34,247 bases of DNA from NCBI GenBank assembly GCA_022825725.1, contig JAJDWE010000014.1, positions 1 through 34,247 on the forward strand, given 5' to 3'. Below the pieces are notes generated by a model. It saw only the letters and a program-made list of their open reading frames with translations, was not told the origin of the DNA and did no database searches. The position numbers were made by a program, and so were the translations under genes. The DNA comes from Gemmatimonadota bacterium (GTDB lineage Bacteria > Gemmatimonadota > Gemmatimonadetes > Palauibacterales > Palauibacteraceae). Below, piece after piece: positions 7,467 to 17,748 of the stretch. Position 1 is the first letter of the stretch; each line of letters starts with the position of its first letter.

Positions 7467-8876
7467 ATGGATCTGAATGAGCTGCTCCTCCGGCCCGAGG
7501 GGAAGACCCTCGAGTTCAAACAGGACCTTTCATCCCCTCGGGGATTCCTGCGCACCGTCGTGGCGTTCGCGAACACGGCGGGCGGTACCGTTCTCATCGG
7601 CGTGGAAGATCGGACGCGGCACGTCAGGGGCGTCCGCTGCGCGCTCGACATGGAAGAGCGGGCCGCGAGCCTGATCAGCGATTCCATCCAGCCCGCGCTC
7701 TGGCCGGACCTCGAGATTCTGAGGTTCCGCAGCGCGCAGGTACTCGCCGTGCGCGTCCATCCCAGCCCCGCGCGACCGCATTTCATCGCCCGGCAGGGAC
7801 TCGAAGCGGGCACGTACGTGCGGGTGGGCTCGACCAACCGCCAGGCGGACCTTCCACTGATCGCGGAGATGCGGCGTTCCGCCACGGGCGAGTCCTACGA
7901 CGAGCAGCCGGTGCCGGCGCTCGACTCGGAAGCGGTGGACTTCCGAGCGGCTTCGGAGTTGTTCGCCTCGGTCCGGAAACTGAGGCGGCGCGACCTGGAG
8001 ACCCTCCGCCTCGTGACCACGCATCAGGGCCGGTCCGTACCCACGGTCGCCGGCGTGCTGCTGTTCGGCGGCGACCGCCTCGAGCACTTCCCCGACGCCT
8101 GGATTCAGGCCGGCCGCTTTGCCGGGACGGTCCGGTCGGTCATCGTGGACCAGACGCGGATCGAGGGGCCCCCGATCGAGGCGATCGAATCGGCCGTCTC
8201 GTTCGTGAAGAAGCACCTGCTGCACGGCGCCACCATCGGTCCGGTGCGGCGCATCGACCACTGGAATCTGCCGCCCGAAGCCGTGCGGGAAGCCATCACC
8301 AACGCCGTGGTGCATACGGATTATGCACAGCGCGGCGCCCCGATCCGCGTTGCGATCTTCGATGACCGCGTGGAGATCGAAAACCCCGGCCTGCTGCCGT
8401 TCGGGCTCACGCTGGAGGATCTGCCGCGCGGCGTCTCGAAGCTCAGGAACCGGGCGCTCGGCCGCGTCTTCCAGGAACTCGGGCTCGTGGAACAGTGGGG
8501 GAGCGGGGCGCCGCGCATGATCGGCGCCTGTCGGGACGCGGGTCTGCCGGCGCCGGTCTGGGAGGAGATCGCGTTCCGGCTGCGCGTCACGCTGCGCACG
8601 GAGAAGGTGGGTCCCGCGCTGGTGGACGACCGGGACGGCACGATCCTGCGTGTGCTGGAGAGCGGGGTCGGACAGGGCACGCGCGACATCGCCGAAGCCG
8701 TGGGCCTCTCGACCCGCTCCACCCGCACGCGGCTGGCCCGGCTCGTCGAACGCGGGCTCGTGCGCGAAGTCGGCACGAGTCCGAACGATCCGCGGCGGGT
8801 CTACGTCAGGTCGCCCTCGGACGCCCCGGCCCCGGACGACCTGGACGACTTCCGGGGCTTGAGGACGAAGCGGTAG
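7467..8876 (+). CDS. Putative transcriptional regulator with Schlafen AlbA_2 and HATPase_c_4-like domains
   Basis: A 469-residue protein. Residues 5-120 form the Schlafen AlbA_2 domain: LEFKQDL, then FANTAGGTVLIGVED, then YVRVGSTN. Residues 265-360 carry the GHKL-ATPase-like part (VREAITNAVVHTDY, DDRVEIENPG, LGLVEQWGSGAPRM). Residues 390-450 look like a winged helix-turn-helix (DIAEAVGLSTRSTRTRLARL, then VERGLVREVG). This is the common 'ATP-dependent DNA helicase RecG-related' or COG2865-type regulator; no helicase domain is present. It stands alone after the tct operon, with its own candidate promoter. Its last 76 bp overlap a small convergent gene. Family is confident; targets are unknown. 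Confidence 0.88.
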   Translation: MDLNELLLRPEGKTLEFKQDLSSPRGFLRTVVAFANTAGGTVLIGVEDRTRHVRGVRCALDMEERAASLISDSIQPALWPDLEILRFRSAQVLAVRVHPSPARPHFIARQGLEAGTYVRVGSTNRQADLPLIAEMRRSATGESYDEQPVPALDSEAVDFRAASELFASVRKLRRRDLETLRLVTTHQGRSVPTVAGVLLFGGDRLEHFPDAWIQAGRFAGTVRSVIVDQTRIEGPPIEAIESAVSFVKKHLLHGATIGPVRRIDHWNLPPEAVREAITNAVVHTDYAQRGAPIRVAIFDDRVEIENPGLLPFGLTLEDLPRGVSKLRNRALGRVFQELGLVEQWGSGAPRMIGACRDAGLPAPVWEEIAFRLRVTLRTEKVGPALVDDRDGTILRVLESGVGQGTRDIAEAVGLSTRSTRTRLARLVERGLVREVGTSPNDPRRVYVRSPSDAPAPDDLDDFRGLRTKR

Positions 8877-13731: not shown

Positions 13732-15852
<2,121 letters not shown>

Positions 15853-15867
15853 CCCGGCGGGGTCCGC

Positions 15868-15896
15868 TGGACAGGGGGACTTGATCTCCCTATCCT
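15868..15896 (+). promoter_or_regulatory. Candidate promoter of the DUF4143 ATPase gene
   Basis: TGGACA (15868-15873), exactly 17 bp, then TATCCT (15891-15896): 5/6 and 4/6 matches to the housekeeping consensus. The predicted start point (about 15903) falls inside the left arm of the large palindrome, so the palindrome is placed as an operator or as the first element of the mRNA. Confidence 0.5.
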
Positions 15897-15898
15897 AA

Positions 15899-15943
15899 AG
15901 ATTGTTGAATATCGAACCTTTGGAGTACGATATGCAACAATCT
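15899..15943. promoter_or_regulatory. 16-bp inverted repeat enclosing the ribosome site and start codon of the DUF4143 gene
   Basis: The arms 15899-15914 (AGATTGTTGAATATCG) and 15928-15943 (CGATATGCAACAATCT) are complementary at 15 of 16 positions and separated by 13 bp. The loop contains the Shine-Dalgarno GGAG (15922-15925) and the right arm contains the ATG (15932). It could be a DNA operator overlapping the transcription start, or an RNA hairpin that hides the start codon. Confidence 0.9.
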
Positions 15944-17089
15944 ATACCGAGGCCACGCCTCATGGGCGCGATCCGGCGGGGGTTGTCCGAGGCTCCGGTG
16001 GTGGCTCTCCTGGGCGCGCGCCAGGTGGGGAAGACGACCCTTGCCGAGCAGGTCGTGTCCGCCACGGAGTCCGCCATCATCTTCGACCTGGAGAAGCGGG
16101 GCGAGAGGGCGGCTCTGTCGGCGACGCCCGAAATGCTGCTCCGCAACGCGGAAGGCCTCGTCGTCATCGACGAAATCCAGCGCATGCCGGAACTCTTCGA
16201 GGTCCTTCGGCCCATCTGCGACGCCCGCGACCGCAAGGCCGTGTTCCTCGTCCTGGGCAGCGCCTCGCTGGACCTGATCGAGGGGGTTTCCGAGACGCTG
16301 GCCGGCCGCGTCCAGTTCGTGGATGTGGGTGGCTTTTCCCTCGCCGAAGCCGGACCGGAGCATCAGGATCGGCTGTGGATGAGAGGCGGCTTTCCGCGCG
16401 CGTACCTCGCGCCCTCGAGCGGGGCGTGGTCCCGCTGGATGGAGTCCTTTACGCGCACGTTCCTCGAACAGGACATTCCGGGGCTGGGCTCACGGGTGTC
16501 GTCCGCGGCGCTGGGCCGCTTCTGGAGGATGCTGGCGCACTATCACGGGCAGACCTGGAATGCGGCCGAACTGGGACGCTCCATGGACGCGAGCGTGACC
16601 GCCGTGAGGAACTACCGCGACCTGCTGTCGGGTTCGTTCATGATCCGCCAACTGCCGCCGTGGTTCGAGAATCTGGGCAAGCGGCTCGTGAAGTCGCCGA
16701 AGGTCTTCATCCGCGACACCGGCGTTCTCCATTCCCTGCTGGGGATACGGGAGATGACCGAGTTGGCGGTGAATCCCCGCTACGGCGCCAGTTGGGAGGG
16801 GTTCGCCCTCGAGCAGACGCTCCTGGAGCACGGAGAGCGGGAGGCGTACTTCTACGGAACCCAGCGGGGGGCGGAACTGGACCTTCTGCTCCTGCGGCGA
16901 GGACGACGCTGGGGCTTCGAGTTCAAGTGCACGGAGGCGCCCCGGACCACGAAGTCGATGCACGTCGTGATCCGGGACCTGAACCTCGAACGTCTATGGG
17001 TCGTCTACCCGGGGGATGTCGAGTATCCGCTGACCGACACCATCACCGCCCTGCCGCTCAAGCGAATCGGCGACATCTCCCTGAGTTAG
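15932..17089 (+). CDS. AAA family ATPase with C-terminal DUF4143 domain
   Basis: A 385-residue ATPase. Walker A is GARQVGKTT (residues 28-36), Walker B is VVIDEIQRMPE (Asp80, Glu81), and FLVLGSASLDL near residue 105 is the sensor-1 strand. The C-terminal half is DUF4143: FTRTFLEQDIPGL, GQTWNAAELGRSM-type helix-turn-helix near 215-240, the nuclease-like fold AELDLLLLRRG, and FEFKCTEA near the end. The family is widespread, often horizontally mobile, and its function is not settled; a restriction-endonuclease-like core is usually noted. I chose ATG 15932 rather than TTG 15902 because GGAG sits 6 bases upstream. The start lies inside a striking palindrome. Confidence 0.93.
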   Translation: MQQSIPRPRLMGAIRRGLSEAPVVALLGARQVGKTTLAEQVVSATESAIIFDLEKRGERAALSATPEMLLRNAEGLVVIDEIQRMPELFEVLRPICDARDRKAVFLVLGSASLDLIEGVSETLAGRVQFVDVGGFSLAEAGPEHQDRLWMRGGFPRAYLAPSSGAWSRWMESFTRTFLEQDIPGLGSRVSSAALGRFWRMLAHYHGQTWNAAELGRSMDASVTAVRNYRDLLSGSFMIRQLPPWFENLGKRLVKSPKVFIRDTGVLHSLLGIREMTELAVNPRYGASWEGFALEQTLLEHGEREAYFYGTQRGAELDLLLLRRGRRWGFEFKCTEAPRTTKSMHVVIRDLNLERLWVVYPGDVEYPLTDTITALPLKRIGDISLS

Positions 17090-17128
17090 CGCCGGGTTAG
17101 CGTTGCGTCAGCGCTCCGTCAGCGGGCG
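17085..17128. repeat. Four 11-bp repeats spanning two convergent stop codons
   Basis: The heptamer GTTAGCG or GTCAGCG begins at 17085, 17096, 17107 and 17118, exactly 11 bp apart. The first copy supplies the TAG stop of the DUF4143 gene and the last supplies the TGA stop (as TCA) of the minus-strand DUF2911 gene. The remaining four bases of each unit vary. No hairpin with a T-run is present between the two genes. Confidence 0.8.
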
Positions 17129-17748
17129 ACCTGGAAGGGGGCGGTGGCGACCTGGTCGTCCCACCAGATCGTGAACACGCCGCCTTCCTGCGTCATGTCC
17201 ATGAACGAGATCGTGAGCTGGTCGGCGGACATCATGATCGTGTCCACATCCATCGTGGTGCGCAGCACGTCGCGGTCGGGCGTGTAGCCGTAGGACCCCC
17301 AGAGCGCGTCGTCGTTCTCCTCGCGGAAGTTGTCCTTCGCGCCCCAGTTCGAGAAGACCAGCGTCCACTCGTCCTCGGAGAGTTCCGCGAACACGCTGTA
17401 CTCGCCGGCCGGCAGGCGCTCGCCGCCGAACATGAGATCGGTCTCCGTCATGAAGCGCGTGGACTGGTCCGCGCCGACGCGCCAGAGCGGGGCGCCGCGG
17501 AGGAACTGCTGGCCGTATTCGTCGCCCGAGCCGAACAGGTCGCGGCCGCGCAGGATGGGACGGCCGTAGGTCACGACGACCCAGGAGCCGCTGTAGCTCC
17601 CTTCGGCGTCATAGCCGCCGCCCACCTGGGTCGCCGCCTCGCCACGCGGGCTCGCGCGACGGTCCTGGGCGTCCGCGGGCGCGGCGAAGGCGAGGGCAGC
17701 GCCGAGGGCGAGGGCGAAACAGGGGACGGCGCGGAACATCTTCTTCAT
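17119..17748 (-). CDS. DUF2911 family secreted protein
   Basis: A 209-residue exported protein. A signal peptide ends near FAAPADAQD (about residue 28). The DUF2911 signature is clear: VVVTYGRPILRGRDLFG, then a segment corresponding to the WRxGA motif (PLWRVGADQSTRFMTE), GGERLPAGEYSVFAEL and EWTLVFSNWG. The family is frequent in Bacteroidota and Gemmatimonadota and has no established function. ATG 17748 has GGAGGT 4-9 bases upstream, so the extra in-frame codons further up are rejected. It converges on the DUF4143 gene with about 29 bp between stops. Confidence 0.92.
   Translation of the reverse strand: MKKMFRAVPCFALALGAALAFAAPADAQDRRASPRGEAATQVGGGYDAEGSYSGSWVVVTYGRPILRGRDLFGSGDEYGQQFLRGAPLWRVGADQSTRFMTETDLMFGGERLPAGEYSVFAELSEDEWTLVFSNWGAKDNFREENDDALWGSYGYTPDRDVLRTTMDVDTIMMSADQLTISFMDMTQEGGVFTIWWDDQVATAPFQVAR

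Follow-up and report, generated by a model that had tools for sequence, protein, structure and literature searches.

A palindrome at the start of a DUF4143 ATPase gene as candidate operator for the protein it precedes

The ATPase gene and the palindrome at its start

The window, which denotes the whole stretch of DNA that was analysed, comprises positions 1–34,247 of contig 16 of a 3.49-Mb assembly. Between the gene of an S9 peptidase and a convergent DUF2911 gene, it harbours a gene coding for an ATPase with AAA_14 and DUF4143 regions, which starts within a large palindrome (Table 1). An initial annotation of this DNA had described a near-perfect inverted repeat with a GGAG sequence in its loop and the ATG in its right arm, preceded by a candidate promoter with a –35 element at 15868 and a –10 element at 15891, and these features are all borne out by our analysis. 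The two arms form 15 out of 16 pairs around a spacer of 13 nucleotides, the start codon at 15932–15934 is contained in the right arm, and the promoter-like sequence matches the consensus at 9 of 12 positions, with a single instance found in the region 15700–16100, where 50 shuffles give 0.1 on average. The same promoter is found in the 98% relative L041, and L042 carries the variant TGGACA-17-TACTCT. If transcribed, the region 15890–15960 is predicted to fold with an energy of –21.5 kcal/mol (z of –5.65) and the bare stem of the palindrome with –18.2 kcal/mol (z of –7.04).

Table 1. Positions of features of the ATPase locus within the window
Feature	Position	Strand	Remarks
Palindrome, proposed operator	15899–15943	.	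Arms 15899–15914 and 15928–15943
Core TTG...CAA, 33 bp	15905–15937	.	Spacing common to most clades; outer 39-bp version at 15902–15940
Left half-site TGTTGAATAT	15903–15912	+	Base accompanying Arg312: G at 15904, mirrored by C at 15938
SD-like GGAG in spacer	15922–15925	+	
Promoter-like TGGACA-17-TATCCT	15868–15896	+	TATCCT at 15891–15896; predicted transcription start near 15903
AAA_14 and DUF4143 ATPase gene	15932–17089	+	385 amino acids; PADLOC PDC-S01 match; model pLDDT 95.4
Arg312 codon	16865–16867	+	Turn between strands 305–310 and 315–322 of the PD-(D/E)XK-like domain
Nuclease-like motif E315-x-D317 ... E330-x-K332	16874–16927	+	From residue conservation and domain model

Within the 34-kb window, the palindrome is the sole repeat with arms of 16 nucleotides, at least 15 pairs and a loop of 3–20 nucleotides. 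Since 30 mononucleotide shuffles of the window contain a total of six such repeats, equivalent to about 0.2 per window, its occurrence by itself is only moderately unlikely, and its significance instead stems from its recurrence in front of related genes, as described below. A search of Rfam gave no match at gathering score in the region 15500–16300, and a known structured RNA element was thus rejected, as was an intrinsic terminator, which is not found in 15700–16100. A dispersed repeat of the REP or MITE type was rejected based on the presence of one copy per genome: the pattern of the palindrome is present in eight out of 17 genomes of the genus, at a single place in each, and absent from the other nine, and it occurs in 11 of 394 genomes of the class, again at one place each. 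Elsewhere in the window (7467–8876, plus strand), a gene with Schlafen AlbA_2 and RecG C-terminal-like regions and a winged helix-turn-helix contains a 13-nucleotide inverted repeat (7494–7506 and 7530–7542, 92%) just inside its start.

The ATPase is matched by seven PDC-S01 models from the PADLOC profiles, with a best E-value of 1.4e-82, while an NCBIfam search gave no match and a search by sequence retrieved no solved structure at E-values up to 1. An AlphaFold model of the full-length protein, whose confidence is listed in Table 1 as mean pLDDT, was based on an alignment of 71 out of 77 representatives, which excludes L046, L051, L052, L062, L085 and L170, among them those that appear decayed. 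In these decayed-looking homologues, the Walker A region is altered in L051 and L062 and residues of the nuclease motif in L085. Residues 1–271 of the model share the fold of the archaeal ATPases 2QEN (Z of 17.8, 250 aligned residues, rmsd of 3.0) and 2FNA (Z of 16.7), followed by matches to plant NLRs, CED-4, the Apaf-1 apoptosome and Avs5. The resemblance to the archaeal proteins stops before the C-terminal domain, which, if folded alone (residues 241–385, 49 sequences), is predicted with a pLDDT of 89.5. The nearest folds of this domain are those of Can2 (Z of 7.8), McrBC (7.3), Hjc (5.1) and FokI (5.0), and nine of the ten best structure matches, with Z-scores of at most 7.8, are Can2, Cdn1 or McrBC; the best E-value in Foldseek is 2.9e-3. 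In both topology and the residues D...ExK, the modelled domain resembles the PD-(D/E)XK nucleases Can2, McrC, archaeal Hjc and FokI, although with a best Z of just 7.8 and an identity of about 10%, a nuclease role is putative. Among the 71 aligned sequences, E315 and D317 are invariant and E330 and K332 are conserved in at least 90%. Residues 241–385 are hence referred to as a PD-(D/E)XK-like domain and putative nuclease.

Recurrence of the inverted repeat and co-variation of its arms

The comparison was extended to the start regions of related genes. Matches to the ATPase were found in 46 of 100 genomes searched, with up to 25 in a single genome, and 100 homologous loci from this search were combined with 80 from a wider collection, whose closest member, from a record titled uncultured Gammaproteobacteria, is 79% identical. 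Together with the window, 162 of the resulting 181 loci were kept, whereas five duplicates and loci with less than 38% identity or fewer than 340 amino acids were dropped. An inverted repeat with at least 9 out of 12 pairs is found at the gene start in 109 of the 162 loci, compared to 68 of 1421 control windows taken from the same loci (4.8%), and at a threshold of 10 pairs the numbers are 74 and 7, respectively. According to the initial annotation, homologues without a conserved palindrome would refute its regulatory role; in this respect, the 109 loci reaching 9 pairs stand against 53 that do not, such as L051, L062, L068 and L119. Among the loci dropped at about 30% identity, other candidate inverted repeats were seen in some, such as L129 and L138–L140.

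The repeat also stands in front of homologues from records whose titles name Gammaproteobacteria, Acidobacteria, Verrucomicrobia and other groups, where the upstream sequences otherwise look different. While its sequence varies by clade, and even between the three paralogues L073, L082 and the window gene of a single genome, the spacing of its TTG...CAA elements is nearly fixed at mostly 33–34 bp. A symmetric arrangement at this distance is found in 76 of 134 sites and an outer version of the TTGTTG type at 39–40 bp in 38, with both sets overlapping and neither present in 42.

The initial annotation had also proposed to look for co-variation of the arms across homologues, which is manifested in their sequences. 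In 151 sites, changes affecting both sides amount to 355 compared to 142 in shuffles, and none of 500 shuffles reaches the observed number. The fraction of Watson-Crick pairs between the arms is 0.80 compared to 0.57 in shuffles, with 0.80 again not reached in any of the 500, although this value is inflated because the centres of the palindromes were picked by best pairing, and the 1421 control windows, which are free of this bias, provide the fair control for pairing. Co-variation beyond shuffles is also found within the group of 51 sites preceding proteins with an arginine at position 312.

Correspondence between half-sites and residue 312

To relate differences in the half-sites to the sequence of the ATPase, their register was fixed by the fit to the motif TTGNANAT, which leaves some freedom. 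In 98 non-redundant loci, half-site differences best follow residues 304–318, with a partial Mantel r of 0.35 (residue window 307) after correction for overall protein distance, where the 99% quantile of the maximum in 300 permutations is 0.18. This region leads in pairs with 5–45% and 35–55% protein difference, whereas at 50–70% it ties with a stretch near residue 188, and in close pairs (5–35%) the best stretches are found near 241–256 and 347–361. A helix-turn-helix as specificity reader was rejected, as residues 205–231 reach at most 0.07 among the stretches listed.

The second base of the half-site shows its strongest relation to the column of Arg312, with a mutual-information score of 7.1 standard deviations, while columns 29 and 128 reach 6.1. 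An outer G, as in TGTnG, is found in both arms in 43 of 47 rows with Arg312 and in one of 93 others (140 rows, including the held-out loci described below). On a tree built without the alignment columns 300–320, there are six changes of Arg312 and six of the outer G, which coincide on five branches, namely the stem of the 45-row clade of the window type, the losses in L152, L173 and L197 and the gain in L348. Among the 1536 column-residue states tested, Arg312 ranks first, and the runner-up coincides with the outer G on three branches. A sign test on independent pairs gave four with the same direction, none opposite and one tie, with a median p of 0.125, and is underpowered because of too few informative pairs. 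A clade of four loci (L088, L094, L369 and L376) constitutes an exception by combining Arg312 with half-sites of the ACGGG type.

A prediction based on this correspondence was written before further loci were fetched, of which 57 out of 58 non-redundant ones could be scored. Of five held-out loci with Arg312, three contain TGTnG and two do not; L348 is the independent case, with 43% identity to the window protein, whereas L292 and L351 are 71–73% identical. In loci with at least 8 out of 12 pairs but without Arg312, the outer G is absent from 36 of 37, the exception L297 being of poor register, and the remaining 15 contain weaker repeats that are uninformative. A second batch, with five non-redundant loci among 76, is no fair test since L269, L273 and L275 originate from pattern searches; here the Arg312 locus L269 fits, and one of four loci without this residue (L275) contains a G in one arm. 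The reading of guanine by arginine is established chemistry in protein-DNA recognition, and the comparison of sequences makes a contact between Arg312 and the outer G of both half-sites probable.

Proposed operator function and alternative explanations

We propose that the palindrome serves as a DNA operator for the ATPase encoded directly at this site, which would bind it partly via its nuclease-like domain and in this way regulate its own expression, a reading to which we assign a probability of about 0.73. Autoregulation is suggested because the site is located over the promoter or start, occurs once in its genome and is matched to the protein. In the proposed mechanism, a symmetric assembly of the ATPase would read two half-sites that are about three helical turns apart, where Arg312, placed on a turn of the C-terminal domain, would probably contact the outer G of each of them. 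The bound protein would cover the promoter or start region and set its own level, presumably by repression rather than activation, and a change in the state of the STAND-like ATPase could lead to its release from the operator.

The initial annotation had offered two readings, an operator for the ATPase and a hairpin at the 5'-end of the mRNA that gates translation by hiding the Shine-Dalgarno sequence and start codon. The former agrees with position, spacing, arm co-variation and the co-change with residue 312, whereas the latter is not favoured and appears unlikely as main function of the repeat. The hairpin would account for the strong predicted fold in the window, which contains both the GGAG and the ATG, and with the promoter located upstream of the repeat, the mRNA would include the left arm for the most part. 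Structure in RNA should favour wobble pairs, for which there is no clear preference over all sites, with departures from pairing distributed between 35 G-T and 38 A-C combinations in 109 sites and 57 and 54 in 151 sites; within the Arg312 group, the respective counts of 19 and 12 lean towards the hairpin but are too small to decide. It also does not account for the constant spacing of half-sites while the centre of the palindrome is located mainly either 28–31 or 41–44 nucleotides before codon 7, nor for the co-change of base identity with a residue of the protein. A promoter survey covered 136 loci with 9 or more pairs, of which 131 contain a start codon, and only 14 of these an SD-like motif. 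Consensus scores of at least 8 out of 12 are found in 99 of the 131 loci, many of which are related, compared to 166 of 680 shuffles. Among these 99 loci, 43 have a –10 element that ends 5–9 nucleotides before the ATG, and their mRNAs are thus predicted to be leaderless and to lack the left arm. In L065, L066 and L075, whose promoters look leaderless, the –10 element ends six nucleotides before the ATG and the –35 and –10 elements each occupy one arm of the repeat. A DNA operator is thus favoured by the co-variation of arms without excess of G-U pairs and by the many predicted leaderless promoters. With its SD-like GGAG and a promoter that precedes the repeat, the window departs from the leaderless pattern, and an additional effect on the RNA may hence exist in its own lineage besides the operator.

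The presence of palindromes without a gene in related genomes counts against the ATPase as binder of the operator. In the intergenic region that corresponds to that of the window, gene and palindrome are found together in three genomes (G000, which contains the window, G002 and G005), whereas five sister genomes (G008, G016, G001, G007 and G012) have retained a solo palindrome at the place corresponding to 15853–17117 of the window in absence of the gene. By reading, these sites form 16, 15, 15, 14 and 14 of 16 pairs (L245, L246, L247, L251 and L252), with one compensated change in that of G012 (L252), and they resemble the gene-bearing allele in the palindrome alone while their near flanks are unlike. 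In G007, whose assembly is 97% complete, no protein similar to the window ATPase (P0001) was found. Two further genomes contain neither gene nor palindrome (G009, G010) and two contain remnants of the gene (G011, G015). A pattern of the TTGAAATATG type was found at 27 places in 198 genomes, and in 17 of 22 loci examined the gene is located beside the site, whereas it is not intact in five. In L286 (887–921), the palindrome is followed by the first codons before the gene is cut off, in L272 and L277 (both 1501–1535) the gene is missing, L280 contains a C-terminal fragment, and the site in L270, with three mismatches, may be due to chance. The simplest reading of these loci is a deletion of the gene that has left the palindrome behind.

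The position of the site over a promoter by itself does not name its binder, which could be a different regulator of the host. With the repeat accompanying the gene across phyla, differing in type between paralogues of the same genome and changing in concert with residue 312 of the ATPase, such assignment to another protein is very unlikely. Similarly improbable is a role of the palindrome as terminus or target of a mobile unit that is acted on by the ATPase/nuclease. Such activity would conform with the strong horizontal spread of the family, evident in the match of 79% identity mentioned above, with the solo palindromes sharing one place in five sister genomes, and with the location of more distant relatives, all below 60% identity, on plasmids (354 of 72,556 records). 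It is at odds with the single place or complete absence of the pattern in genomes of the genus, the lack of an inverted repeat around the 3' end of the gene (17060–17180), two clean empty sites where no target duplication is evident by eye, and the appearance of other solo sites (L286, L277) as relics of deletion. In an inspection of neighbours in nine plasmid stretches, one without annotation near the ATPase gene, four (L392, L393, L394 and L397) contain a gene for an integrase, recombinase or transposase less than 1 kb from that of the ATPase.

Palindromic operators with an autoregulatory role are known from toxin-antitoxin, restriction controller (C) and CapW/BrxR genes. As in the proposed ATPase operator, the palindrome is located over the own promoter and bound by the gene product, which in these systems is a dedicated DNA-binding regulator, whereas here it would be an ATPase of 385 residues whose specificity tracks the nuclease-like domain. 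While the operator would thus be of a known kind, we found no description of such an ATPase as binder and a nuclease-fold domain as reader in the open-access papers searched, and none of this operator among the matches listed for DUF4143, AAA_14, COG1373 or PDC-S01. If true, it would be unusual for a domain of this fold to read the operator of its own gene. Extending this idea, the PD-(D/E)XK-like domain might serve as sequence reader by which a STAND-type ATPase parks its nuclease domain on a palindrome found only at its own promoter, with nuclease and gene both kept silent until a signal of infection frees them, each paralogue having its own address in a residue-to-base code of which Arg312 and guanine would be the first letter, a scenario that we regard as speculative and rather doubtful.

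Its match to PDC-S01 makes the ATPase a suspected candidate for anti-phage defence. PDC-S01, a single-gene defence candidate in PADLOC, is reported to rank fourth in frequency among the defence systems of prokaryotes and to code for a fusion of an ATPase with a member of the PD-(D/E)XK superfamily, while most candidates of this type still await validation by experiment (PMC12988326). The window protein shares the HMM match and, as predicted, this domain combination, whereas neither operator nor DNA site is mentioned in the descriptions of PDC-S01 consulted. A DNA site in combination with a predicted contact residue and natural switches in specificity would offer a direct biochemical handle on PDC-S01. 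In Thermus thermophilus HB27, the RNA of TT_P0211, a gene with AAA_14 and DUF4143 motifs, is reported to rise by a factor of 6.6 in the joint presence of plasmid DNA and Argonaute (PMC4406477), a likeness to the window ATPase that is defined by these motifs and does not establish orthology. The homologue of strain HB8 (TTH_RS10120, L391) is preceded by a weak repeat with 7 out of 12 pairs.
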